DNA from: Spirochaetales bacterium
GTDB taxonomy: Bacteria > Spirochaetota > Spirochaetia > UBA9216
NCBI GenBank assembly: GCA_016342585.1
Contig: JAEINK010000011.1
Location: 1-64,000 of the forward strand
Length of the DNA: 64,000 nucleotides
Direction of reading: 5' to 3'
Positions 38,272 to 53,535 of the stretch are shown here, in pieces. The position numbers were made by a program, and so were the translations under genes. Below the pieces are notes generated by a model, which saw only the letters and a program-made list of their open reading frames with translations, was not told the DNA's origin and made no database searches. The first letter of the stretch is position 1. Every line of letters starts with the position of its first letter.

Positions 38272-38898
38272 ATGATGAGTAAAAACAGCGGCCGCGGGGC
38301 GGCCATCCTGGCAGGCGGGAGCAGCTGCAGGTTCGGCAGTGATAAAGCGGTTATTGAAACGAGGGAAGGTCCTTTAATCAAATGGATTGCCGATCAGCTG
38401 ATGGATGTATTTGATGAGGTGATCGTTATCGCCAATGATCCGGAACGATATGATTTTCTTGAACTCCCGGTTTATCCCGACCTGCTGAAAGGCAGGGGGC
38501 CTCTGGGCGGAGTTCATGCGGGCTTAGTTGCTTCTTCCTTCAGGCATACTTTTTTTACAGCCTGCGATATGCCCTTTATCTCTATCCCTCTTATTCGTCA
38601 TATGGAATCTGTGATTATTAAGAGTTCACCCCCGGCTCTGGTAGCCTGCCGGGACGGTTTTGTTGAACCCTTTCATGGTTTCTATTCAAGAGACCTTGTC
38701 AGCCTGATAGAAACTTTTTCCGGAAATGAAGGAGGGGGAATATATGCATTCCTGCGGACAGTGTCGTATCTCCGGGTAGAGCAGGATAGGCTTTTACAGT
38801 TTTGCCCTGACGGTCGAATTTTTAAAAATATTAACAGGATGGAAGATTTGTCTTTGCTGGGAGATCTGGCCTGCCGGAGTGCTTCTATCAGCAACTGA
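38272..38898 (+). CDS. mobA: Molybdenum cofactor guanylyltransferase MobA
   Basis: A 208-residue nucleotidyltransferase that attaches GMP to molybdopterin to form the (bis-)MGD cofactor. The signature LAGGSSCRFGSDKA is at about 12-26, the second motif is GPLGGVHAGL, and the metal-binding region is FTACDMPF. It lies close to the AOR operon, whose enzyme needs a pterin-bound W or Mo, although AOR family members usually carry un-nucleotidylated or Mg-bridged pterin. A TATAAT lies near 38219. The 3' end overlaps the tail of the convergent tetR gene by 11 bp. Confidence 0.9.
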   Translation: MMSKNSGRGAAILAGGSSCRFGSDKAVIETREGPLIKWIADQLMDVFDEVIVIANDPERYDFLELPVYPDLLKGRGPLGGVHAGLVASSFRHTFFTACDMPFISIPLIRHMESVIIKSSPPALVACRDGFVEPFHGFYSRDLVSLIETFSGNEGGGIYAFLRTVSYLRVEQDRLLQFCPDGRIFKNINRMEDLSLLGDLACRSASISN

Positions 38899-39570: not shown

Positions 39571-39604
39571 TATCCATTGCGTATTGATTTTTAATAATTT
39601 TATT

Positions 39605-39650
39605 AGAGCCGGGGTTCATATCCCCGCAGCTTGTTGCGGGGAGAGTCATT
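39605..39650. repeat. Dispersed palindromic (REP-like) element, copy 2
   Basis: It begins GAGCCGGGGTTCATATCC and ends GGGGAGAGTCATT, with hairpin CCCCGCA-N6-TGCGGGG (39622-39641). It shares its head and tail with the element at 2743-2822. It lies in the AOR leader between the two TetR operators. Confidence 0.6.
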
Positions 39651-39660
39651 ATTGTAGACA

Positions 39661-39682
39661 TAAACCGATCGCAACCGGTTTA
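39661..39682. promoter_or_regulatory. TetR operator candidate 2
   Basis: TAAACCG (39661-39667), N8, CGGTTTA (39676-39682), nearly identical in sequence to candidate 1, including the CGCAA in the spacer. It is immediately upstream of the Shine-Dalgarno of the AOR gene, about 111 bp from the first site. Confidence 0.7.
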
Positions 39683-39695
39683 CAGGGAGGTTTCA

Positions 39696-41723
39696 ATGAA
39701 GGGGTATATCGGCAGGATCTTAAGTATAGATCTATCGTCCGGGGAGTGGAAGGCAGAAACTGTAGGTGATGATGTTTATGAGAAATTCCTTTCCGGTGTG
39801 GGTCTGGGGGCCTGGTATCTCTATCAGAATATCCCCGCCGGGGCTGATCCTATGGGGCCGGAAAATATCCTGGGTTTTACATCCGGTCTTTTAACCGGGA
39901 CGGGCACCGTCATGACAGGAAGGTGGATGGCCATGTGTAAATCCCCCCTCACGGGCGGATGGGGAGATTCCAACTGCGGCGGTAATCTGGCCCCGGCTAT
40001 AAAGCAATGCGGGTATGATGCGATCTTCATAAAGGGACAATCGAAAAAACCGGTCTACATTTTCATCGACAACAAGGGACCGGTCATTAAGGATGCCTCC
40101 GCGTATTGGGGGCTGGATACGGTGGAAGCCGAAGAGAGACTGATAAAGGATAACTGGAATAAGAAGAAGCCTTCTGTGGCTGTTATAGGGCCTGCGTCGG
40201 AAAAGCTCTCCCTTATCTCGGGGATTTCAAACGATGGGGGGCGCTTTGCCGCCCGCTCCGGGGTTGGGGCTGTTATGGGCTCCAAGGGTTTGAAAGCCCT
40301 GGTCCTGGCAGGGACAAAGGCGGTGACCTGTGAGAATCCTGAGGCTATAAAAATCTTAACGAAAGAGTATGCCCGTAAAGTGCGAAAATCCAACGCCCCG
40401 GGGATCATGGGGGGATGGGCCATGGCTGTGATGGGCAAACTCCTGGGATCCATGAAGTCCGTTGTACCTATTGACGGTATCATGACAGTCATGCTCCTGA
40501 AAAAATGGGGGACGGTCATGAACAACACCATGGCCATTCAGAATGGGGATGCTCCTTTAAAAAACTGGAGTGGATCGGATAAAGACTACAAGGGGAAATA
40601 TTCATCCTCCCTGAATCCTGACAAATTCATTGCCCGCGAGGAGCGAAAGTACCACTGCAGCTCCTGTATCGTTGGCTGTGGAGGCATCTGTTCTATCAAG
40701 GATATACGGGATGGAAAATATTCTCACACCCATAAACCCGAGTATGAGACGGCCATGTGTTTCGGCGGACTCCTGATGAGTAAAGACACGGACTCCATAT
40801 TCTATGCGAATGAGATCTGTAATCGATCCGGTCTCGATTCCATCTCCGCAGGCGGAGTGATTGCTTTTGCCATTGAGTGTTATGAAAATGGTATTCTCAC
40901 TAAAGAGGATACGGGTGGGCTTGAACTTACCTGGGGGAATTCTGATTCTATTATCAGCCTTCTTGAAAAGATAGCTGCCAGGGAGGAGGGGATTGGTGCC
41001 CTCCTGGCCGATGGTGTGAAACGGGCAGCCGAAAAGATCGGGAAAGGGTCTGAACGCTTTGCTGTGCATGCGGGAGGGCAGGAGTTGCCCATGCATGATC
41101 CTAAGATCGATCCTATGCTCGGGGCTGTCTACAGTGCGGATCCCACACCGGGAAGGCATACCACAAGTTCCGGAGTCTATTATACAACATCCGCTCTCTG
41201 GGAGAAAATTTCCTGGCTTCCCCGATTCAGGATGTATCCTAAGGCGAAGGAGTATATAAATCATGATGAGGTGTCACTTAAAAATGTGGCCTACACCAGC
41301 TACAAAATGCTCATTGATGGAACGGGATCCTGTTATTATGCCATGCTTATGGGGGTCAATCACTATAAGATATTTGATTATCTGAATCATGCTACCGGCT
41401 GGAATTTAAGTGCAGATGAGTATATCGAGATTGGGAAGAGGATGCAGAATATGCGTCAGCTCTTTAATATCAAACAGGGCGTCGATCCGGCCTCTTTTAT
41501 AATGCATGCCCGGGCAACCGGGGAGGAACCCTTGATATCCGGACATAATGAAGGACTCAAGCTGGACATTCAGGCTCTGGCTGAATCCTATAGAAGGGCC
41601 TGGGGCTGGGATGAAATTACGGCGGTTCCCACCAGTGAGACTCTGGAAAAATTCGGACTTAAAGAGCTTGTGGTTGTTGGTGGAGAGACGGCTGGTTCAG
41701 AGAGAGAGGTAACAAATGGCTGA
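39696..41723 (+). CDS. Aldehyde:ferredoxin oxidoreductase family tungsto/molybdoenzyme
   Basis: A 675-residue AOR-family enzyme that oxidises an aldehyde (or related carbonyl) to the acid while reducing ferredoxin, in the cytosol. The N-terminal AOR domain starts GYIGRILSIDLSSGEW, and its pterin-binding loop includes GRWMAMCKSPLTGGWGDSNCGG. The [4Fe-4S] ligands are in CSSCIVGCGGIC (about 318-329), with the fourth Cys later in GTGSCYYAML. The Shine-Dalgarno GGGAGG precedes the ATG. A ferredoxin and a MoaD-like protein follow with overlaps. The subfamily (true AOR, FOR or a specialised member) cannot be set by eye. Confidence 0.92.
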   Translation: MKGYIGRILSIDLSSGEWKAETVGDDVYEKFLSGVGLGAWYLYQNIPAGADPMGPENILGFTSGLLTGTGTVMTGRWMAMCKSPLTGGWGDSNCGGNLAPAIKQCGYDAIFIKGQSKKPVYIFIDNKGPVIKDASAYWGLDTVEAEERLIKDNWNKKKPSVAVIGPASEKLSLISGISNDGGRFAARSGVGAVMGSKGLKALVLAGTKAVTCENPEAIKILTKEYARKVRKSNAPGIMGGWAMAVMGKLLGSMKSVVPIDGIMTVMLLKKWGTVMNNTMAIQNGDAPLKNWSGSDKDYKGKYSSSLNPDKFIAREERKYHCSSCIVGCGGICSIKDIRDGKYSHTHKPEYETAMCFGGLLMSKDTDSIFYANEICNRSGLDSISAGGVIAFAIECYENGILTKEDTGGLELTWGNSDSIISLLEKIAAREEGIGALLADGVKRAAEKIGKGSERFAVHAGGQELPMHDPKIDPMLGAVYSADPTPGRHTTSSGVYYTTSALWEKISWLPRFRMYPKAKEYINHDEVSLKNVAYTSYKMLIDGTGSCYYAMLMGVNHYKIFDYLNHATGWNLSADEYIEIGKRMQNMRQLFNIKQGVDPASFIMHARATGEEPLISGHNEGLKLDIQALAESYRRAWGWDEITAVPTSETLEKFGLKELVVVGGETAGSEREVTNG

Positions 41724-41955
41724 TAAAAACAAACGACCGATTGTAAATATAAAAGAGTGTATGGCCTGTCGCATATGTGTTTCTACCTGTCCTTTCAGCT
41801 GCCTGCAAGAGAGCCGGACAGGTTTGGATCGATACAACAAGGCCTACCCGGAGCTTCTGTCTCCCGATACCTGCACTGCCTGCGGATTATGTGCCAGGGC
41901 CTGTCCGGTGGATGCGATTACCATGAATGTCCCTGCTGGCCCCTCCGTGGCATGA
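41716..41955 (+). CDS. 2[4Fe-4S] ferredoxin partner of the AOR
   Basis: A 79-residue bacterial-type ferredoxin with two cluster motifs, CMACRICVSTCPFSC and CTACGLCARACPVDA. It overlaps the AOR stop by 8 bp and the MoaD-like start by 4 bp (ATGA), so the three are stoichiometrically coupled. It is the likely electron acceptor or electron-transfer subunit for the AOR. Confidence 0.92.
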   Translation: MADKNKRPIVNIKECMACRICVSTCPFSCLQESRTGLDRYNKAYPELLSPDTCTACGLCARACPVDAITMNVPAGPSVA

Positions 41956-42185
41956 AGGTCAAATTATACGCCCCCCCTTTCTGTGATCATAGCGGGATCG
42001 ATGATCATGGATTTCTGGAACTGAAGGCGGGGGCCAGGCTGAAGGATCTATATTCCATAATAAAAGTACCCCTCCTGGTGAGGCCGGTTCTGATCACTTC
42101 GGTTAATTATGAAAAATCCGGTTTGCTGTGCAAGCTTGAAGATGGCGATACGGTGAGTATTTTCTGGCCCCTGTCGGGGGGGTGA
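41952..42185 (+). CDS. MoaD/ThiS-like ubiquitin-fold sulfur carrier
   Basis: A 77-residue protein starting MKVKLYAPPF and ending WPLSGG, with the C-terminal Gly-Gly that is thiocarboxylated in MoaD/ThiS proteins. It fits a dithiolene-forming sulfur carrier for the pterin cofactor of the AOR. The ORF track reports it inside a longer frame (41757); ATG 41952, overlapping the ferredoxin stop as ATGA, is the true start. MoaD-like genes are frequent partners of AOR genes. The C-terminal codons form one arm of a strong hairpin (42165-42204). Confidence 0.85.
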   Translation: MKVKLYAPPFCDHSGIDDHGFLELKAGARLKDLYSIIKVPLLVRPVLITSVNYEKSGLLCKLEDGDTVSIFWPLSGG

Positions 42186-42367: not shown

Positions 42368-42817
42368 TCATCCATCCAGTTTTTTCAGCAGATTCCCGAC
42401 TTTTGTCACATGACCGCTCTCCTGATTGTAGAGCATCTGAAAGAGGTCTGCCACATCGGCATTCAGATTTGTCATGGTGGCAATACTGGCGTAAAAATCC
42501 CGGGTGTTCTTCTCCCTGCCCAGGGCAGTATTCAGGATCTCCCTTTCAGTTGTTGTTGCCGAAATACTACGGTTCTGAATAAGCTTGTCCATACTCTCTG
42601 TGTCCAGGCCGGAAACAGCCGTGTTGTCGGCAGAGGCCAGAATATCGGTCAGCCGCTGTTCATGTTTGATCTCCTCCTGCTCAAGAATCGCAAGGAGTTC
42701 CTTCACGGCCTGCCCGTCGACTTTGGCCGCTGATTCCCGGTAGAAGTTCATGGATTCATGTTCAATCCTGATGGAGTATTTCAGTATATCGGTAACATTC
42801 ATTTCTCCAGAGCTCAT
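42368..42817 (-). CDS. Ferritin-like diiron protein (rubrerythrin-type, no rubredoxin domain)
   Basis: A 149-residue four-helix protein with the diiron ligand pattern: E in RIEHESMNFY, ExxH in EEIKHE, E in GREKNTRDFY and ExxH in NQESGHV. It lacks the C-terminal rubredoxin domain of true rubrerythrins. Its start overlaps the stop of the NuoI-GltD fusion (ATGA-type, 4 bp), so it is the last gene of the complex-I-like operon. I infer peroxide or oxygen protection for its iron-sulfur centres. Confidence 0.82.
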   Translation of the reverse strand: MSSGEMNVTDILKYSIRIEHESMNFYRESAAKVDGQAVKELLAILEQEEIKHEQRLTDILASADNTAVSGLDTESMDKLIQNRSISATTTEREILNTALGREKNTRDFYASIATMTNLNADVADLFQMLYNQESGHVTKVGNLLKKLDG

Positions 42818-44655
42818 CTTTCTTCTCCTTTTTTCAGATAACGATCAATCCCGATGGCCGCAAGGTGGCCGTTGGCGATTCCGCTTATGACATCAGGTCC
42901 TTTGACGATGTCGCCTCCGGCAAAAAGCCAGGGCATGTTTTTAACCTGATAATCCGGATCCGTGGCGATTTGTCTTCGCGGTGTGTACTCCAGTGTGGAA
43001 TTCAGCTCTTCGGGGATGTATGTCAAATCCGATGCCTGGCCGATGGATTCAATTATCATATCGGCTTCATAGAATTTTTTATCTTCCAGATCGAACTTCG
43101 GGCTGAATCTTCCCTCTTCGTCGAAGATATGGAGGCATTTTGCCACTTCAAGTCCTTTCATGCTCCCATCGCTGTTCAGCTCGATCTTCTGTGGTCCGTA
43201 GGCCGGGGTTATGACAGCCCCCTCTTCCCGGGATTCTATCACCTCTTCTTCATCGGCGAGCATGCCGTCGCTCGGTTCAAGGCAGGTGGCCGTAACATCG
43301 ACTTTACCATATTTCTTTCGCTGAAGCCTTGCCATCGACCGGGTGATATCCATGGCAACATTCCCGCCTCCGATGACCACAACTTTTTCTGGAACGTATA
43401 TCTCTTCACCAAGGCTTATTTTTCTTAAAAGTTCAATTGATTGATATACCCTTTCGTGGTCCGAGTTTTCAATCCTTGTGGAGCGTCCAAGGTGGAGTCC
43501 CGTTCCGGCGAAAACCGCATCATAGTTCTCTTTCAGCTCTTCCAGGGTGATATCCTTGCCGACACGTATCCCTGTTTTTATCTCTACACCGATGGATTTT
43601 ATGTAATCAATATCTTTGTCTATCATTTCATAGGGGAGACGGTATTCGGGGATTCCGTATCGCATCATACCGCCGGCTTCGGGCAGTTCCTCATAGATTG
43701 TAACCTCATAACCCATATTAGCCAGGTAGTGGGCGGCCGAAAGACCTGAAGGGCCGGCACCGACAATCCCAACCTTCTTCCCGTTTTTCTGAATGCTTTC
43801 CGTACCGAGTATCTTCCTGTATTTCTCAGATTCAACATTGTCGGCGATATACCGCTTCAGCCATCTGATGGAAATCGCATCGCCCTTATTCCCAATAGAG
43901 CAGACGGTTTCACATTTATGGGTACAAATTCTGCCACAGACTTCGGGGAGGGGATTGGTTTCATAGAGGATCCGTAAACCCTCTTCCATATCATCTTCCC
44001 TGATAGCCTTGATATAGGAGGGGATTCCCATGTGGGCGGGGCAGGTAGCTGTACAAATTCCGCATTCAACACATCTGTCCGCCTCTTTCAAGGCCTGTTC
44101 GCGGGAGTAACCCTTCATCATTTCAATGAACGAGGTGCTCCTCTCCTCCGGCTTCAGGTGGTCCATCGCCACCCTTTCGGGTGGTGTCAGATCATAGTTT
44201 TCCGGTTTCCGGTAACCCTCTTCAACATTATCCCAGTATTTTTTGTCTGCCCCGATTATAAATCTGTAATCCTCCGGGCTGCCGTTGACTCCGCCTTCGT
44301 TTTCCCCCTCTACAGACCAGCGGAACCTGTTGGTCATACTAAGTGAGTTTGTTGTGCAGATATCAACACACAGGGCACACCAGCAGCAACGGCCATAATC
44401 GATTCTTGGTCTGAGACCCGAGTCGCCATCCTTGGCTTCGATTCCCACTACCGGGACCATGTCTATGGCTGCATTCTGGCATATCTCTTCGCAAGTGCCG
44501 CATCCAATACACTTCTCTATGTCATTCTTATGAAAGCCCCTGTACCTCTCCGACCCCTCTTTTTTTTCGGGGTGTCGCATGGTTACAGGCTCTTTTATAA
44601 TATTTTTCCATACGGTAAAGGGGTATAGTACGTCTTTCCAGCTTGAATTGCTCAT
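42814..44655 (-). CDS. Fusion of NuoI/MbxN-like ferredoxin and GltD-like NAD(P)H oxidoreductase
   Basis: A 613-residue protein. Residues ~1-125 are a NuoI/MbhN-type subunit with two [4Fe-4S] motifs (CIGCGTCEEIC and CCWCALCVDIC, preceded by YRGFHKNDIEK). From ~175 on it is a GltD/NfnB/SudA-like flavoprotein: FeS domain (CVECGICTATCP ... CTHKCETVCSIG), an FAD site GAGPSGLSAAHYL, an NAD(P)H site VVIGGGNVAMDITRS and the closing GGDIVKGPDVISGI motif. It would link the membrane arm to NAD(P)H, with ferredoxin as the other partner. This joining of two subunits in one chain is unusual. Confidence 0.9.
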   Translation of the reverse strand: MSNSSWKDVLYPFTVWKNIIKEPVTMRHPEKKEGSERYRGFHKNDIEKCIGCGTCEEICQNAAIDMVPVVGIEAKDGDSGLRPRIDYGRCCWCALCVDICTTNSLSMTNRFRWSVEGENEGGVNGSPEDYRFIIGADKKYWDNVEEGYRKPENYDLTPPERVAMDHLKPEERSTSFIEMMKGYSREQALKEADRCVECGICTATCPAHMGIPSYIKAIREDDMEEGLRILYETNPLPEVCGRICTHKCETVCSIGNKGDAISIRWLKRYIADNVESEKYRKILGTESIQKNGKKVGIVGAGPSGLSAAHYLANMGYEVTIYEELPEAGGMMRYGIPEYRLPYEMIDKDIDYIKSIGVEIKTGIRVGKDITLEELKENYDAVFAGTGLHLGRSTRIENSDHERVYQSIELLRKISLGEEIYVPEKVVVIGGGNVAMDITRSMARLQRKKYGKVDVTATCLEPSDGMLADEEEVIESREEGAVITPAYGPQKIELNSDGSMKGLEVAKCLHIFDEEGRFSPKFDLEDKKFYEADMIIESIGQASDLTYIPEELNSTLEYTPRRQIATDPDYQVKNMPWLFAGGDIVKGPDVISGIANGHLAAIGIDRYLKKGEER

Positions 44656-44690: not shown

Positions 44691-45872
44691 CTATCTCTCC
44701 ACTTCCGGCGGATAGGTGTGGATGGATACCAGGGTTCCCGCCACATCCGCGACATTGCAGTTTACAAGCATCTTTTCCGCCAGGGTTACGGCATGAGTAT
44801 AGCTTGGTCCCCTCACATTTATCCTGCGGGGGTACCCAGACCCATCGGTAACCACATAGTACCCATATTCACCACGGGTGCATTCGGCCTTCACATAGGT
44901 CTCTCCTGCGGGAATTTTCCAATGGAGCATGCTTGGCAGTTTGGCCTTGAACTCTCCTGTTTCCGGCGTCTGATCGATAATCTGACGAATCAGATTGATC
45001 GAAAGAAGGGTGTCCCTCCAGCGGAGTCTGGCCCTGGCAAAGACATCAGAGTCTGTTTCCGTCAGGGTTTCAAACTCAAGAGCCGGGTATTTTGCATAAG
45101 GATTATCCTTTCGAATATCCCTGGGGATACCGGCTGCTCTGGCATTGGGGCCGGTGATTCCATACTCATCCACCCACTCGGGGTTGATATACCCGAGACC
45201 CCGGGTTCTTGTTTTGAAGACCACATTATTGAACATAACCCTTTCCACATCGTAGAGGATGGTTTCGATCTCTTTCAGGGTTTCGATCATCCTCCCCTTG
45301 AATCCGGGAGGAAGATTGTCCCTGACGCCTCCGGGGATTATGTAGATATGATAGATCCTTGCTCCCGAGAGTTCCTCGAACATGCTTAAAACTTTGTCCC
45401 GGCAGTAGAGGGTCCACTGCCCAATTATTCCCATCCCGAGGGAACCGGCCTGGCCGCCTATCCACATAAGGTAGGACTGAAGCCTTGCCATTTCCATAAT
45501 AAGGGTTCTGATCCACTGGGCGTTATCGGGGATCTCAATACCGGCGAGCTCTTCGAGGGCCGCAGCGTAGCAGTATTCATTAAAGTCCGGTTCGGGGACA
45601 CAGATTCGGCACACCAGGGGGAAATTGTTGATAAATCTCCGGCGCTCCATGAGTTTTTCAAATCCGCGATGGAGATACCCCACATGGGTTTTTGATTCCA
45701 TCACCTCATCCCCCAGGAGGGTTAATTCGAGAGACATGTTTCCCGTGATTCCGGGGTGCTGGGGACCCTGCCACACCTTTACATATTTTCCGCTGGAAAG
45801 ATCGATATCGATCGAACCGTCGGGTTGATTTTCAGGGAAGAGTTCCCTGTTCTTTACTCCATAATCAAGCAT
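44691..45872 (-). CDS. NuoD/MbxL-like catalytic large subunit
   Basis: A 393-residue 49-kDa/[NiFe]-hydrogenase-large-subunit homologue: EVMESKTHVGYLHRGFEKLME and FPLVCRICVPEP near the N-terminus. An N-terminal CxxC (CRIC) is present, but the C-terminus (VSIHTYPPEVER) has no DPCxxC. A [NiFe] site is therefore not possible, as in Mbx/Mbs and Nuo proteins. It begins at the stop of the NuoC-like gene and is followed 35 bp later by the NuoI-GltD fusion. Confidence 0.92.
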   Translation of the reverse strand: MLDYGVKNRELFPENQPDGSIDIDLSSGKYVKVWQGPQHPGITGNMSLELTLLGDEVMESKTHVGYLHRGFEKLMERRRFINNFPLVCRICVPEPDFNEYCYAAALEELAGIEIPDNAQWIRTLIMEMARLQSYLMWIGGQAGSLGMGIIGQWTLYCRDKVLSMFEELSGARIYHIYIIPGGVRDNLPPGFKGRMIETLKEIETILYDVERVMFNNVVFKTRTRGLGYINPEWVDEYGITGPNARAAGIPRDIRKDNPYAKYPALEFETLTETDSDVFARARLRWRDTLLSINLIRQIIDQTPETGEFKAKLPSMLHWKIPAGETYVKAECTRGEYGYYVVTDGSGYPRRINVRGPSYTHAVTLAEKMLVNCNVADVAGTLVSIHTYPPEVER

Positions 45873-46414
45873 TATTTTTCTCCTTCACTAGGGTAAAGTT
45901 TTTCTTTCATGTGATCGGAAGGATCGTTGGTACTTCGGCCTTCCCTGGGGAAGTAGGTTTCTTCGGAATATTTCTTTGTGTCGAAGTCCCTTCGGTAGGG
46001 TGGTATATCATCCCAATATTCGAGGATCAGGGGATCGTTGATCTCCGGACTCCCGGGAAAGTCTATCCCGAACATCTCATGGAGCTCTCTCTGATAGGTC
46101 TTTGCCGCCGGCCAGAGATGATGAGCCGATTGCATTTCCGACTCTTCCGGCCAGACGCTTCGATCAATAAAAGTTCTTACCCCTATCGACTTTTTCAAGG
46201 TCGGATTATTCAACAGGTAGGTCAGTTGAAATTGATTATCTTCCAGCCAGTCTACTGCTGTCAGGAGGATGAGATGTTTGAATCCTTCATACTCTTTCAG
46301 GTAGGTAAGAAGGCTTACGGTATCTTTTTTTTCACAGGTGATATAGTACCCGTGGTCTGTAGTCACTTTTGAAAGCGTGAACTGCTTCCTGACATTTTCT
46401 ACAATGGTATCCAT
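45872..46414 (-). CDS. NuoC/MbxK-like subunit
   Basis: A 180-residue peripheral subunit of the 30-kDa complex-I family. The conserved C-terminal block TYQRELHEMFGIDFPG is present, and the tail with EYWDDIPPYRRDF is typical. It contacts NuoB and NuoD homologues. It ends exactly where the NuoD-like gene begins and starts 9 bp after the NuoB-like stop. Confidence 0.9.
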   Translation of the reverse strand: MDTIVENVRKQFTLSKVTTDHGYYITCEKKDTVSLLTYLKEYEGFKHLILLTAVDWLEDNQFQLTYLLNNPTLKKSIGVRTFIDRSVWPEESEMQSAHHLWPAAKTYQRELHEMFGIDFPGSPEINDPLILEYWDDIPPYRRDFDTKKYSEETYFPREGRSTNDPSDHMKEKLYPSEGEK

Positions 46415-46423
46415 ATTTCCCCC

Positions 46424-47089
46424 TTACCAGCTGTAGTCCGGCATATCCCAGGATTTGATGATCTTCTTCTGGTTAGCCTTATACCATTCATAATTTTCTG
46501 CATATTCATTGGCCCCTTCACCGCGGCCTTCCTTGATCCTTTTTTTCAAAAGTTCGATGGCATCAAGGAGTGCTTCGGGCCTGGGCATGCAACCTGTTAT
46601 GTAGACATCGACAGGAATGTAGTGATCGAGACGATTAATCGTGTTGTATGAATCCCAGTACATGCCGCCATTGATTGTACAGCTGCAGAGTCCAATCACC
46701 CATTTCGGTCCCTGAATCTGCTCATAACTCCGGACTATCCGCTTGATCGTTTTTATGGAGGCATAGCCTCCGATGACGAATACTGTCGATTGTCTCGGGG
46801 TTGCCCGCCAGGCCACACCGTACCGGTAGGCATCATACATGGGGCTGGAGAGGGGGCGCATCTCAATCGCCCCGCAGCCGGTACCGAAAGCCAGGATATA
46901 AATGGATTCCGCCCGGCACCAGTTCATAAATTTTTCCAGCGGTGCGATCTTTGAAGGAGGATGTACCTTCGGCTTCGCGTCAGCGAAGTAATCCTTCATG
47001 GGATCTACTTCGAACTCTTCCCCTTCGGGGGAGACCACAATCCTTTTTTCCAGATCGGCAAACCGTTTTTTGTAGTTCATCTTTGCCAT
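46424..47089 (-). CDS. NuoB/MbxJ-like small subunit with proximal [4Fe-4S] cluster
   Basis: A 221-residue PSST-family subunit holding the cluster next to the active site. Candidate ligands are in FGTGCGAIEM (a single Cys rather than the tandem CC of Nuo), GLCSC and ITGCMPRPEAL. It has a ~50-residue N-terminal extension and a Tyr/Lys-rich C-terminal tail. It starts 3 bp after the NuoH-like stop. The absence of the tandem Cys supports membership of the Mbh/Mbx branch rather than NADH:quinone complex I. Confidence 0.91.
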   Translation of the reverse strand: MAKMNYKKRFADLEKRIVVSPEGEEFEVDPMKDYFADAKPKVHPPSKIAPLEKFMNWCRAESIYILAFGTGCGAIEMRPLSSPMYDAYRYGVAWRATPRQSTVFVIGGYASIKTIKRIVRSYEQIQGPKWVIGLCSCTINGGMYWDSYNTINRLDHYIPVDVYITGCMPRPEALLDAIELLKKRIKEGRGEGANEYAENYEWYKANQKKIIKSWDMPDYSW

Positions 47090-48034: not shown

Positions 48035-51000
48035 CTACATGCCTCCCTTGGTTAACATAAAGGTTACCACCACAAAGATAATCATCTGCAGAAGGTAGGT
48101 CTGACCGTTTCCGGTGTAGATCCTTCTTGCGAATCCTGCAATGGCATGGAGAAAGTCGGAGATTGAATTCCAGAATTTTGTGGTGAAAGGATATTCAAGA
48201 AATCCCAGAGCCTTTCTGACCGGTGCAAAGAAGTTATAGGAGAAGTGGGTTGTCTCCGGTCGGGCCGGACGTTCGGCTGCATAGACGATGTTGAACTGTT
48301 TTACCATTTGCGCCCGTCTGCCGCCGATTGTGATGATGATAAAGAATAAAGCGAACAACCCCATGAAGGTCCACATGACGGCTACGCCGTTCCAGTATCC
48401 ATACTGGGTGGAGGCCAGGTTTCCCGTCCAGACCAGGGCCCCTTCAGTGGTGAACTCTTTCAGGATCTCCCCGATGGGTCTTAAGAAAGAGCCGGGGAAG
48501 AATGAGAGAAACATGACCACACCCAGAAGAAGAACCTGGGGAAGTATGATGAAAAAGGGAGCTTCTTTAACCTTTCGGTGCTCATCCTTCAGTTGCCCCA
48601 GGAAGATCGCAAAGATCAATCTGAAGAGGTAGAGGAAGGCGATTATACCGGCAGCACCGGCGACCGCACCCTGAAGCATCCAGCCCTTATCCAGGACAGC
48701 ATTATAGGTGATCCATTTTCCACTGAATCCCGCCAGAGGAGGGATCCCCGAGAGAGCGATAATACACACCAGAACACTGAAGAAGGTTATGGGCATCCTT
48801 TTTATTAATCCGCCCATCTGGTACATATTTTTGGTCTTTGTCCTGTAGACTACCCCGCCTACTGCCAGGAAGAGGGTGACCTTATAGACAAAGTGGACGA
48901 TTGAAAGTGAAAGGGCTGCAAGCCATCCAAGATGACTCATAAGGGATATGGCAAATAATGCGTATCCCATCTGACCTATACTTGAATAGGCGAGGAGGCG
49001 TTTTGCATCCTCCTGCATGGCAGCCATATAGTTTGCCACCAGGGCGGTGATGACGCCAACCCAGCTCAGGACGTAAGGTAGATCAATCACACCTATAGAT
49101 TGTCCACCCATGGCGATGGCTGTCATAAGCAGGCCGAATACACCTGCTTTCAGGAGGATCCCCGAAACCATGGGGGATACATCCGTCTCCGCCTCGGCAT
49201 GCGCTCCGGGGAGCCAGATGTGAAGTCCCGCCGATGCCATCTTGGTCATAAAACCAACAGCCAGCAGGAGGAATATCACCCCTGAATAGGGGGTTATCGC
49301 GGCACTTTTCAGTACCTCGAGGCTGATCGAATGGGCTCCCGTTCCGGCATAACTCAAGCCGAATCCCATTAAAATGAGGTATGCTCCCCCAAGAGAGAAA
49401 AGCATATAACTTAAGGCGTGGGGCTTCGACTTCTTTCCTCGAAGGATCAGAAAGTATGACCCGAGGGTCATGATCTCCCAGGAGAGGAAGAAGCTTAAGA
49501 ACTCTTTAGCTTCGATAATACCGATGAGCCCTGCGAACATCAGTCCTACAGAGGGGTAGAACCCCACCCTTTTTCCCTTCTTTCCGAAACCGGGGAGGAG
49601 GGTTATGAGGGCCCCAATAATGAAGATCATAGCAAAAATGGAGCGGTAACTCTCGGCTGCCTGCATAAATGGATAACCGTAATAGGCTATAGCACCCATT
49701 ATCAGGAGGTTTTTCACAATGGCCGGCAGGAAATCAATAAGCATGAGTACAACAACAGCTCCCAGAAGGATCCAGTTGAATCCCATCTCGAAAGAGGACA
49801 TACCTGCTGAAAAATAGCCGAGGGCTAGGAGAAGTCCCGCATTTACAAAAACAGGTTTTACCGAGCCGAACCGCCAGTCCAGACTGTCGGTCTGGTCATA
49901 TCCATTTTTGAAGGCATTGCCGAACCAGCGCATTAAGTACACGGCTTCAAGCATGGAGCCGCCCAGGATAACAATCATCCATACGATACCATCCCTGGCG
50001 GCCAGTCCCATTATAAGATCCCATTTTGCAAAGAAAGAGGGAAAGGGGGGCAGACCCAGGAGGGCGAAAATGCCTATGGCGAATGGGGCCAGGAGTATTA
50101 TCTTCTTTCGAATTACACCCCATTCATGAACAGACTCCTTCTTTACAATCCCGGCCAGCCAGAAGAGGAGGGCCTTCGCCAGGGCATGGGTGATGAGGAT
50201 ACCGAGGACAATGAATTCTCCCTTGGTAATGTTAAAGATCTGCACCAGAGAAAAGGCCATAACCACAAGCCCTACCTGTGATATGGAGGAATAGGCCAGG
50301 AGGCGGCGGGCATTATCCTGCTTCAAGGCCAGGAGATTCATGCCGACAAAGGTTATTGCCCCGATTACCGCGGCCGCTTCCAGGAAGGCCCCGCCGGTAA
50401 CACCCATGATTTTTGTGTAGGCATAAAACATGGCAGTTGTTGTTCCCGAGGCCACCAGGGCGCTGACCGGGGGTACCGATGCCTCGTAGGCATCAATTCC
50501 CCAACCATTTACCGGGAAGGGTTTTAACTCCATGATCATCCCTATGAATATAAGGAAGAATCCGGTATAACCTGCCGATATCAGTCCGGGATTCATCATT
50601 CCTCTGATAATATCTATATTGAGCGATCCTGTTGTGTAGTATGTGAAGATAATACCCAGGAGCATTAATCCGCTCACCAGGGCTCCGGCGATGATGAATT
50701 TAAATCCTGCACCAAGCTGCTTCAGGTTACTCTTCAAGGCGATTAGCCCTGCCGAGGCAATGCTCACGATTTCGATGAACACAAAAAGATTGAACAAATC
50801 TCGTGTAAGAATGACTCCGTTTAATCCTGTTACAAATACCAGTAAAAGCATAAAGATATAAACAGAAGATTTTCCCTTTTCGGGTTTCAGGAATAAACCG
50901 CTTAAGAGTGCCGAAAAATTCACCAGGAGGAGGAGAATCGCTTCGGTCCTTCCCATATACAGATTGATCGAGAGGGGCGGTTTGAATCCTGCGGTGAAAA

Positions 51001-51181
51001 CGTTCACCTCTGTCCCCGTTCCTGCCAGGAAGCTGTAAGCGGCCTGGAGAGAAATGGCCGTCATCAGTGTGAGAGCCGCCAGGGTCAGGACTTTTTGAAT
51101 GTTAATATTGACTTTTCTGAACAGCCCGAGAAGGAAAGCCGTTCCGAGAGCCGTAATTATCAAGTAAATTGGGTCTACCAT
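48035..51181 (-). CDS. Double antiporter-like subunit: MrpD/NuoM module fused to a second one (MbxH-H'-like)
   Basis: A 1048-residue protein of two complete proton_antipo_M modules (about 1-495 and 500-1000), roughly 28 TM in total, ending in a conserved-looking lateral helix region (KALGFLEYPFTTKFW). Module 1 keeps TM5 Glu (FVFIEIVSI) and TM7 Lys (MELKPFPVNGWG), but TM8 reads SGTTTAMFYAY where a Lys is usual. Module 2 keeps Glu (LSWEIMTL), Lys (MTKMASAGLHIWLPGAH) and TM8 Lys (LLKAGVFG). Two cation-translocating units per complex are implied. It overlaps the MrpC-like gene by 7 bp. Fused antiporter subunits are unusual; in archaeal mbx they are separate genes. Confidence 0.92.
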   Translation of the reverse strand: MVDPIYLIITALGTAFLLGLFRKVNINIQKVLTLAALTLMTAISLQAAYSFLAGTGTEVNVFTAGFKPPLSINLYMGRTEAILLLLVNFSALLSGLFLKPEKGKSSVYIFMLLLVFVTGLNGVILTRDLFNLFVFIEIVSIASAGLIALKSNLKQLGAGFKFIIAGALVSGLMLLGIIFTYYTTGSLNIDIIRGMMNPGLISAGYTGFFLIFIGMIMELKPFPVNGWGIDAYEASVPPVSALVASGTTTAMFYAYTKIMGVTGGAFLEAAAVIGAITFVGMNLLALKQDNARRLLAYSSISQVGLVVMAFSLVQIFNITKGEFIVLGILITHALAKALLFWLAGIVKKESVHEWGVIRKKIILLAPFAIGIFALLGLPPFPSFFAKWDLIMGLAARDGIVWMIVILGGSMLEAVYLMRWFGNAFKNGYDQTDSLDWRFGSVKPVFVNAGLLLALGYFSAGMSSFEMGFNWILLGAVVVLMLIDFLPAIVKNLLIMGAIAYYGYPFMQAAESYRSIFAMIFIIGALITLLPGFGKKGKRVGFYPSVGLMFAGLIGIIEAKEFLSFFLSWEIMTLGSYFLILRGKKSKPHALSYMLFSLGGAYLILMGFGLSYAGTGAHSISLEVLKSAAITPYSGVIFLLLAVGFMTKMASAGLHIWLPGAHAEAETDVSPMVSGILLKAGVFGLLMTAIAMGGQSIGVIDLPYVLSWVGVITALVANYMAAMQEDAKRLLAYSSIGQMGYALFAISLMSHLGWLAALSLSIVHFVYKVTLFLAVGGVVYRTKTKNMYQMGGLIKRMPITFFSVLVCIIALSGIPPLAGFSGKWITYNAVLDKGWMLQGAVAGAAGIIAFLYLFRLIFAIFLGQLKDEHRKVKEAPFFIILPQVLLLGVVMFLSFFPGSFLRPIGEILKEFTTEGALVWTGNLASTQYGYWNGVAVMWTFMGLFALFFIIITIGGRRAQMVKQFNIVYAAERPARPETTHFSYNFFAPVRKALGFLEYPFTTKFWNSISDFLHAIAGFARRIYTGNGQTYLLQMIIFVVVTFMLTKGGM

Positions 51182-51525
51182 TTCAGCTCCTCGAATTTAT
51201 CAATTTCCAATGTTCCTTTTTTGTCATACATGTTAACCGCATAGGTCAGCATGAAAGCCGTTATACCAAGGCCGATTACAATGGCTGTCAGAACCAGGGC
51301 CTGGGGGACGGGATCAACATATGACTTTCCTATATCGGAAAGGCTTTCAACGATCGGTGCCGTACCTGAGGCACGATATCCAACAGCGATCATTATCAAG
51401 TGGATTCCAAGGTCAAAAATCGTGAATCCGACTATCATTCTGATAATATCCTTGTTCGTAAGTACAGCCCATAATCCCAGGAGAACCAGGATGACGCCTG
51501 TTACAATTGCTGCAGTACCTATCAT
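51175..51525 (-). CDS. MrpC/MnhC/NuoK-like subunit (MbxG)
   Basis: A 116-residue protein with three TM helices, NuoK fold. The conserved region is GFTIFDLGIHLIMIAVGYR followed by DPVPQALVLTAIVIGLGITAF. It overlaps its neighbours on both sides by a few bases. It is part of the Mrp-type cation-translocating module. Confidence 0.92.
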   Translation of the reverse strand: MIGTAAIVTGVILVLLGLWAVLTNKDIIRMIVGFTIFDLGIHLIMIAVGYRASGTAPIVESLSDIGKSYVDPVPQALVLTAIVIGLGITAFMLTYAVNMYDKKGTLEIDKFEELKW

Positions 51526-52229
51526 TTTTCTGATACCTCCTCTACCGTGTCCCCTTTCAGGGTCACAACGACTGAACTCAGCTCGGAACCGACTTTTAAT
51601 CCGACTACCGAATAGATGACTGGAATGAGTCCTCCACTTATCAGAGTTCCGTATTCACCAAGGGGGAGAATTCTGCTGTCGAGGAATCCATTGACTGTAA
51701 GAAAGAGGCCTACGGCACCCAGAGCAACATAGGTCATCCCCGAGATCGATTCGATAATCGAGAGTACGGTATGTCCAATCTTTCTGTTAGGATCTGCGAG
51801 AACCGTGAGAACCATTCCCGACGCTATGATGGCGCCGCCCTGGAATCCCCCTCCCGGACTAAGGTGTCCATTTATAAAGACATAGACCCCGAAGATGAGT
51901 ATGAGGGGAAACAGAAAACCTGAACCGGTTTTGAGGAGTTCACTGGCCTCTCTCCGGAGACCATTCTCATTTTTATTAAGATGGATAAGGAGACCCACCA
52001 CGGCCGCTGCGGCAAAAAGGATGGTAACCTCTCCCAGGGTATCGAGTCCCCTGTAGGAGACAACAACCGCCGTAACCACATTGGCCGCCCCGAGTTCCTC
52101 AGGCCCTTTTTCAAGATAGTGGGCCGATGCCTCGGGCATCCCCGCCGGTTCTGTAAATTGCAGTACAAACGGGCTGATTATTATTCCAAGGGCGACTAAC
52201 ATAAGGAGGATGAATGCTTTTCTGATCAT
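51522..52229 (-). CDS. Fused MbhE-MbhF-like subunit (MrpA C-terminal end plus MrpB)
   Basis: A 235-residue membrane protein. The first half matches the end of MrpA (VVTAVVVSYRGLDTLGEVTILFAAAA); the second half is MrpB-like (FPLILIFGVYVFINGHLSPGGGFQGGAI). This is consistent with the single E-F gene of mbx-type operons rather than separate E and F. It overlaps both neighbours by 4 bp. Confidence 0.9.
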   Translation of the reverse strand: MIRKAFILLMLVALGIIISPFVLQFTEPAGMPEASAHYLEKGPEELGAANVVTAVVVSYRGLDTLGEVTILFAAAAVVGLLIHLNKNENGLRREASELLKTGSGFLFPLILIFGVYVFINGHLSPGGGFQGGAIIASGMVLTVLADPNRKIGHTVLSIIESISGMTYVALGAVGLFLTVNGFLDSRILPLGEYGTLISGGLIPVIYSVVGLKVGSELSSVVVTLKGDTVEEVSEK

Positions 52230-52465
52230 CTTTCTCCCCCCCTAACTTTCTTTAGAGCAAAGAAAAATATGAAGGTTGTCAGTCCGCTTCCAATGGCTGC
52301 CTCAGTCATGGCTACATCCGGTGCTGCAAGAATTATGAATAAAATAGAAGAAAAAAGTCCTGCCGCTCCTGCTGCCAGGATGGAAACCGTTCTATCCCGG
52401 GTGACCACTGCCAAAACCGCTGCGGATAAGGTGAACAGGGCGATGATAATAAAAATAATTTCCAT
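52226..52465 (-). CDS. MbhD-like subunit (MrpA C-terminal DUF4040 segment)
   Basis: A 79-residue, two- to three-TM protein with the signature APDVAMTEAAIGSGL found in MrpA C-terminal segments. The full-length MrpA N-terminal antiporter is absent from the operon, as in Mbh and Mbx. Confidence 0.9.
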   Translation of the reverse strand: MEIIFIIIALFTLSAAVLAVVTRDRTVSILAAGAAGLFSSILFIILAAPDVAMTEAAIGSGLTTFIFFFALKKVRGGER

Positions 52466-52467
52466 AT

Positions 52468-52791
52468 CTATTTCACCTCCTCTGGTGTTTCAAGTTTATC
52501 TTCAATTGTTTTATCACTCATTTTTTGTCCGCTGAAATGGGCGCCTCTGGCAACCACATGGGAGGATATCGGGTTCGTGAGGATAATGAAGAGGATTAGG
52601 ATCACAAGCTTCGTTGTCCATTCCGGGTGGATAAAGGCCATGCCAATCATGACGACGATGGTTCCCAGGGTTGTTGCCTTTGTTCCCGTTTGTATTCTGT
52701 TGTAGACATCGGGCATTCGAATTACCCCAAGGGCGCTTAAGAAGAATATAAGGGATCCTATAAGCATTAATATTGAACCTGCAAGAATCAT
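52468..52791 (-). CDS. MrpG/MnhG-like subunit (MbxC)
   Basis: A 107-residue protein with three TM helices and the MnhG motif GVIRMPDVYNRIQTGTKATTLG, followed by TNPISSHVVARGAHFSG. It starts at the last base of the MrpF gene and stops 2 bp before the MbhD-like gene. Confidence 0.93.
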   Translation of the reverse strand: MILAGSILMLIGSLIFFLSALGVIRMPDVYNRIQTGTKATTLGTIVVMIGMAFIHPEWTTKLVILILFIILTNPISSHVVARGAHFSGQKMSDKTIEDKLETPEEVK

Positions 52792-53051
52792 TACAGCCCC
52801 CTTTCGTAATAACGGGCAACGACGAGGACTCCGATGAAACTCAGGAGTGCATAAACAAGTGCCACATCGACATAAATGAATCTTTCCAGTAGATGAGCCA
52901 GTATCACGATTAGTGACATGGCAATAATGGAAGCGGTATCGAATGCTACCACCCTGTCCAGGATCGAAGGCCCAATAATAAATCTGATGAGTATTATGCC
53001 AATACTTATCAGGATTATTATGACGGATACTAAGATAATTTGATCAGCCAA
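52791..53051 (-). CDS. MrpF/MnhF-like subunit (MbxB)
   Basis: An 86-residue protein with three TM helices. The MnhF signature IIGPSILDRVVAFDTASII (here RFIIGPSILDRV) and VDVALVYALLSFIGVL are present. It overlaps MrpE by 8 bp. Confidence 0.92.
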   Translation of the reverse strand: MADQIILVSVIIILISIGIILIRFIIGPSILDRVVAFDTASIIAMSLIVILAHLLERFIYVDVALVYALLSFIGVLVVARYYERGL

Positions 53052-53535
53052 AGATTACCTCCAGATGTTTCTCAAATTTATCCACGATTTTTTCGGTAGC
53101 TTTTTCAACATCGGTGGATGACGCGTCGATCCAGTGGATATAGAGTTTGTCTTCCATAATGTCCACTGTCAGTGTTCCCGGAGTCAGGGTAATCGAATTC
53201 GCCAGGGCCAGCCTGCCGAGTTTTGATTTCAATTTTGTCTTTACTTCCACAACGGCCGGGTTGATCCGAACCTTTGGGGTAATTACCCTGGACATAACAT
53301 CAATGTTTGATTTTATGAGTTCAAACAAAAAAACAAATAACCAGGTAAACATGGCTGCTATCGCTTTCGGTGAGAATTTCATTGTCCCAAACAGATCTGT
53401 TTTTACAAGAAAGGCTGTCCCCAGGATGGCGAGCAGGACTCCGGTGATCAGAATCTCTTTTCTTACACTTGAATTCAGTCCAATCCAGAACAGGAGTCCC
53501 AGACAAAATGAAATCAGTACAGTCTTTACTTTCAC
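53044..53535 (-). CDS. MrpE/MnhE-like subunit (MbxA)
   Basis: A 163-residue protein with two or more TM helices and a cytoplasmic domain. The MnhE features are ELIKSNIDVMSRVITPKVRINPAVV and LALANSITLTPGTLTVDI. It is the first gene of the 12-gene operon. It starts with GTG 53535 and a GGAGG 7 nt away. All downstream genes are tightly packed, so one mRNA of about 11 kb is expected. Confidence 0.93.
   Translation of the reverse strand: MKVKTVLISFCLGLLFWIGLNSSVRKEILITGVLLAILGTAFLVKTDLFGTMKFSPKAIAAMFTWLFVFLFELIKSNIDVMSRVITPKVRINPAVVEVKTKLKSKLGRLALANSITLTPGTLTVDIMEDKLYIHWIDASSTDVEKATEKIVDKFEKHLEVIFG

Follow-up and report, generated by a model that had tools for sequence, protein, structure and literature searches.

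The locus and its operon

The window, by which we mean the whole 64,000-nucleotide stretch analysed, carries on its reverse strand an operon that encodes an Mrp-like membrane arm, a core related to NuoB, NuoC, NuoD and NuoH, and a chain in which a NuoI-like ferredoxin part is fused to a GltD/NfnL-like flavoprotein. The features are as follows.

42368..42817, (−): rubrerythrin-like protein, accessory, overlapping the fusion by 4 bp
42814..44655, (−): MbsN(NuoI)-GltD/NfnL fusion, 613 aa
42829..43776, (−): FAD and NAD(P)H Rossmann half of the fusion, residues about 294-609, coenzyme motif CLE at 458-460
43825..44139, (−): GltD Fe-S domain Fer4_20 of the fusion with two clusters, residues 173-277, including K267
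44250..44655, (−): NuoI/MbsN-like part of the fusion with two [4Fe-4S] motifs, residues 1-135, matched over 10-111, best PDB match MBS 6u8y_N
44691..45872, (−): MbsL/NuoD-like, RICVPEPD, no DPCxxC, T43 and V92 at the places of Nqo4 H38 and Y87
45872..46414, (−): MbsK/NuoC-like
46424..47089, (−): MbsJ/NuoB-like, C72, C137 and C167 corresponding to MBS C28, C93 and C123, extra C135
47093..48034, (−): MbsM/NuoH-like membrane anchor
48035..51181, (−): two MrpD/NuoN-M-type antiporter domains in a single 1048-aa ORF, MbsH-H' like
51175..51525, (−): MbsG/MrpC/NuoK-like
51522..52229, (−): MbsE-like, with MbhE and MnhB domains
52226..52465, (−): 79-aa membrane ORF at the MbsD place, assigned by position and look only
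52468..52791, (−): MbsC/MrpG-like, assigned by sequence look and operon order
52791..53051, (−): MbsB/MrpF-like, assigned by sequence look and operon order
53044..53535, (−): MbsA/MrpE-like, assigned by sequence look and operon order

The genes upstream of the fusion thus run MrpE-, MrpF- and MrpG-like, the 79-aa ORF, MbhE/MnhB, MrpC, the double MrpD, NuoH, NuoB, NuoC and NuoD. An Mrp-like arm followed by M, J, K, L and N is what we take to be the subunit order of Pyrococcus furiosus MBS. The same gene order is repeated in about 30 loci, and in several relatives (e.g. L064, L067 and L073) the match to the 48035-51181 antiporter ORF is in two pieces. The P. furiosus MBS subunits are listed in PMC7684303. 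Convergent with the operon lies an aldehyde:ferredoxin oxidoreductase gene at 39696-41723 (+), within 39588-42185; it is followed by an ORF for an 80-aa two-cluster ferredoxin at 41713-41955 (+) and then by a MoaD-like C-terminus, to 42185. A mobA-like ORF is found at 38272-38898.

A single, conserved chain

The fusion gene is a single 613-codon frame with an ATG start, a TGA stop and GGAGGG upstream, and is separated from the NuoD-like gene by 35 bp. GC3 is even along its length and codon composition is unchanged across the joint. The one chain holds four [4Fe-4S] motifs, two of the NuoI type and two of the GltD type, together with sites for FAD and for pyridine nucleotide. The NuoI-type motifs are C49-C52-C55-C59 and C90-C93-C96-C100, the GltD cysteines are at 195/198/201/205 and 240/244/248/252, the FAD GxGxxG motif lies near 299-304 and the nucleotide-binding GGGNVAMD at 429-436; the arginine near FAD N5 is kept. 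Pfam recognizes a Fer4 pair, Fer4_20 and Pyr_redox_2, and the Pfam/NCBIfam limits are 45-107 for the NuoI-type ferredoxin motifs, 173-277 for Fer4_20 and 294-588 for the pyridine-nucleotide oxidoreductase. Coordinates, motifs and Pfam agree with an earlier note on this DNA, which had described a 613-residue chain with NuoI-type motifs, a GltD FeS domain and FAD and NAD(P)H sites.

The AlphaFold model has a pLDDT of 82 and a pTM of 0.77, with low-confidence stretches at residues 1-35 and 114-123 and a good flavoprotein part; the best match of its C-terminal part is NfnL (5jca), with TM 0.88 of target. In an alignment of 49 fusion homologues neither K267 nor any of the 17 motif cysteines varies, and because of this invariance the joining of two genes by a frameshift, sequencing or assembly error, or chance, is excluded for practical purposes; the fused homologues come from many genomes and include an independent match in Thermotoga maritima. 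The second NuoI motif contains a fifth invariant cysteine, C91 (CCWC), in 49/49 homologues.

The architecture is that of NCBIfam NF010590 (PRK13984, "putative oxidoreductase"), which spans fusion residues 5-610 (model positions 7-609 of 611) at 887 bits, a score that does not reach the curated cut-off of 946 despite the full-length match. Among 14 control genomes, PRK13984 is found above its cut-off in T. maritima alone. The fusion is thus genuine and old, and it is already listed in NCBIfam.

A membrane complex of the MBS/MBX type

The NuoB, NuoD and NuoI parts all find MBS (6u8y) as their best PDB match, with 194, 325 and 78 bits, respectively, well ahead of complex I (next scores 122, 202 and 54 bits). 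P. furiosus MBS is a reductase that takes electrons from ferredoxin; its proximal cluster, held by three cysteines only, is where sulfane is reduced, and it lacks the complex I quinone residues H38 and Y87 (PMC7684303). The three catalytic-cluster cysteines (C72, C137 and C167 in the window) are invariant in 27/27 aligned NuoB proteins, and the equivalent of the Nqo4 Y87 tyrosine is absent from all aligned NuoD proteins. An extra NuoB cysteine, Cys135, two residues before a catalytic-cluster ligand, is limited to the window and its two nearest relatives, L009 and L021, and could ligate the fourth iron, a point against the reading proposed below.

Every core subunit is nevertheless homologous to complex I, which could be read as an NADH:quinone oxidoreductase in which a GltD-type input has replaced the NuoEFG type. 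The NuoD of one subclade has an H38-like histidine (L072, L074, L077 and L078; HPGMHGN, with the tyrosine absent). The quinone reading is very improbable, however, given that the Y87 equivalent is lost throughout and the H38 equivalent in the window, that the core is closer to MBS, that the NuoEFG input and the quinone-site His/Tyr were not found in the window operon, and that MenD and MqnA/D, two families, gave no match above cut-off in a 97%-complete genome. A group 4 [NiFe] hydrogenase is likewise rejected, as both RICGxC and DPCxxC are missing from the window NuoD, which has RICVPE and TYPPEVER instead.

Judged by its sequences, the complex is of the MBS/MBX type and neither complex I nor hydrogenase, and the core matches and active-site residues thus correct the complex I-like wording of the earlier note. 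Its N subunit is not the stand-alone, ferredoxin-fed MbsN of the MBS/MBX type; because this subunit is fused to GltD in the window, we file the complex as an MBS/MBX variant.

The fusion accompanies MBS-type cores

The fusion is present in 11/149 Spirochaetota genomes, and MBS-type NuoD is found in the same 11; it occurs in none of those among the 149 that have only complex I-type or [NiFe]/hydrogenase-type NuoD homologues. The fusion directly follows MBS-type NuoD in 16/16 loci with downstream sequence, drawn from Spirochaetota, Bacteroidota and Fermentibacterota, and two further loci are contig ends. Split NuoI and GltD genes were found at none of these 16 loci. Sampling of the order to which one Bacteroidales genome belongs gave the fusion in 44 of 295 genomes, and a broad sample of Bacteroidota has MBS-type NuoD in 2/198 genomes. 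The earlier note had suggested a search for further NuoI-GltD fusions. These are indeed found, in the three phyla above and in Thermotoga; its premise that the domains normally sit on separate genes does not hold for bacterial MBS-type complexes, where fusion is the rule and the family is already catalogued.

The flavoprotein halves of 28/28 fusions fall on one side of a branch with support 100, versus 26 paralogues and 2 solved proteins, which is consistent with a single fusion event. L010, whose record is titled Deltaproteobacteria, has a fusion copy 75% identical to that of the window and also the rubrerythrin-like gene (42368-42817 in the window), which is otherwise restricted to the closest Spirochaetales; lateral transfer or misbinning may account for this.

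Coenzyme type and apparent exchange of the flavin half

The motif after the second Rossmann strand is YRR in the aligned solved NADPH enzymes and CLE in the window, where one acidic residue suggests an NAD-type site. An LE or ME pattern is found in 20 of the 28 fusions first aligned and YRRR in the other 8; YRRR is also found in 21/21 Bacteroidota copies examined later, a count that partly reflects a YRRR-type search query. The fusion had been expected to tell one fixed coenzyme, but the family has both NAD-type and NADP-type halves, apparently exchanged.

The LE and YRRR types separate cleanly in the flavoprotein tree. A single clade of LE types is rejected by the NuoB+C+D tree (lnL difference 237, p 8e-6, where p values lean optimistic because the groups compared in the tree tests were named after the motif and trees were seen), and a single clade of YRRR types by the NuoD tree (lnL 223). 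The C-part tree rejects a group that joins L022, L117, L118 and L119 to the LE-type copies from Bacteroidota (lnL 295). These four Bacteroidales genomes show the apparent swap directly. L117-L119 and the LE-type L016 are 63-70% identical in NuoD and 71-73% identical over fusion residues 36-285 but only 34-35% identical over residues 330-600, whereas L117-L119 and L080 are 57-62% identical over residues 330-600 and only 47-53% identical in NuoD and the N part. For the N part alone (residues 36-285), a single clade uniting every NADP-type row was not rejected by the AU test (p 0.17), which leaves the border of the exchange approximate.

Recombination inside the gene, with an approximate border, is the simplest reading that these comparisons suggest. 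We give roughly even weight for and against a fuller proposal, that the flavin half is an exchangeable cartridge: recombination near the Fe-S/FAD border, at about residue 290-330, would have moved NAD- and NADP-type halves between MBS complexes that otherwise differ and switched the donor, the relay staying with the core. The suggested exchange of this half between complexes is the least expected result of the analysis.

Proposed electron path and direction

We propose, as the probable reading, that the fusion is the electron-input subunit (the MbsN equivalent) of an MBS/MBX-type complex that is linear, non-bifurcating and ion-moving and carries electrons from NAD(P)H to sulfane. NADH (NADPH in other lineages) would reduce the FAD of the fused NfnL/StnC-type NAD(P)H dehydrogenase. 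Electrons would then pass singly via the GltD cluster pair and the NuoI cluster pair to NuoB, whose [4Fe-4S] cluster on three cysteines would reduce polysulfide or a similar sulfane compound in a pocket under NuoD/NuoH, and the Mrp-like arm would move Na+/H+. The GltD clusters, the two NuoI clusters and the NuoB cluster together suggest a linear chain of FAD, four 4Fe-4S clusters and a catalytic 4Fe-4S cluster, and the fused domains and the operon argue that the earlier note was right to see a single-chain path between membrane complex and pyridine nucleotide. Its view of the nucleotide as a hard-wired acceptor finds less favor, as the site at which MBS reduces its substrate is retained at the NuoB end and the pyridine nucleotide is therefore likelier the donor.

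The proposal builds on the fusion, the operon, the MBS-type active-site residues, the co-occurrence of fusion and MBS core and the grouping of the fused flavoprotein parts; from these we infer the electron direction, the sulfane substrate, the NADH preference, the non-bifurcating flavin and ion pumping. The genome has no second NuoD-type gene at 1e-50 and contains Rnf (ferredoxin:NAD+), which, with the MenD and MqnA/D result, points to NAD(P)H-to-sulfane reduction coupled to ion movement. Two CoA-disulfide reductase-like genes (G000:C37:77691-78998 and G000:C95:49775-51097; matched below cut-off, in long frames of 674 and 827 aa, with one gene on the window's contig) are possible sulfane-sulfur enzymes.

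The type of flavin bears on the non-bifurcating part of this proposal. K267, invariant in the homologues, takes the place of the ligand to the FAD-proximal cluster that is a glutamate in NfnB and a lysine in StnC, a placement based on sequence alignment to NfnL (LERF) and to a StnC relative (LKRF), not on structure. StnC, with its lysine ligand, has a non-bifurcating flavin (PMC10482914). Bifurcation by the FAD as in NfnAB, to a high-potential acceptor and ferredoxin, would suit the NfnL-like fold of the flavin domain and the retained arginine, but with the invariant lysine and an operon in which no NfnA-like gene is found we regard it as extremely improbable.

A possible, though doubtful, arrangement is that the NuoI clusters receive their electrons from ferredoxin, like those of archaeal MBS, and that the GltD part is an NAD(P)+ outlet or a second inlet. 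Ferredoxin use by P. furiosus MBS (PMC7684303), the assumption of a ferredoxin donor by the T. maritima authors, who draw MBX in this way (PMC9431562), and the retention of both clusters in the NuoI part speak for this arrangement, and the T. maritima assumption counts against NAD(P)H as donor. However, a direct short cut from ferredoxin to NAD via the N subunit would leave out the membrane arm, and Rnf already serves ferredoxin:NAD+ in this genome.

The energetics also count against the NAD(P)H-to-sulfane reading. NADH is at about −280 mV in cells and polysulfide at about −260 mV, a gap that leaves little energy for pumping. Coupling should then be slight, unless NADPH, a richer acceptor or an additional ferredoxin input comes into play. 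So small a gap would allow either direction, and the complex might run in reverse, an ion gradient driving electrons from sulfide or persulfide to NAD(P)+. At least one relative, L014, has a record title that, as we read it, names a sulfidic-cave source. We consider reversal improbable, since sulfide-oxidation genes were not tied to the operon and the characterised MBS is a reductase (PMC7684303).

Significance and comparison with known systems

MBS has been considered an intermediate between hydrogenases and complex I, and the enzyme characterised biochemically is archaeal and ferredoxin-fed. An NAD(P)H-fed bacterial MBS, if true, would represent an independent route by which complexes of this kind gained a pyridine-nucleotide input, and closely related cores with NAD-type or NADP-type inputs would be natural pairs for studying the choice of donor and the energetic limits on sulfane respiration. 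No earlier description of the fusion, or of a pyridine-nucleotide-fed MBS variant with an apparently swappable coenzyme half, was found in the literature searched, most subscription papers being outside its reach.

The window complex resembles P. furiosus MBS (6u8y) in gene order, in the best matches of J, L and N, in the three-cysteine proximal cluster and in the loss of the NiFe cysteines and quinone residues. In contrast, the P. furiosus MbsN is a 208-aa, ferredoxin-fed protein without a GltD part, its MbsH and H' are separate where the window has one ORF, and the equivalents of MbsJ C25 and MbsL C385 are not cysteine in the window. T. maritima MBX, encoded by the mbx operon, is an MBS homologue induced by sulfur (PMC9431562), in a genome with a PRK13984 match above the curated cut-off; it differs in its assumed donor, ferredoxin. 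The PRK13984 entry itself shares the architecture and assigns no function. Complex I has a homologous core, but its NuoI is unfused, and the window differs in having neither NuoEFG nor the quinone tyrosine. StnC and NfnB (NfnL) share with the fusion its fold, FAD site and two Fe-S clusters. NfnB differs in its Glu ligand (PMC10482914) and in pairing with NfnA, and the solved NADPH-binding GltD-type members aligned carry YRR in place of CLE. StnC is alike also in the lysine at the FAD-proximal cluster, but is fused to a NuoG-like part.
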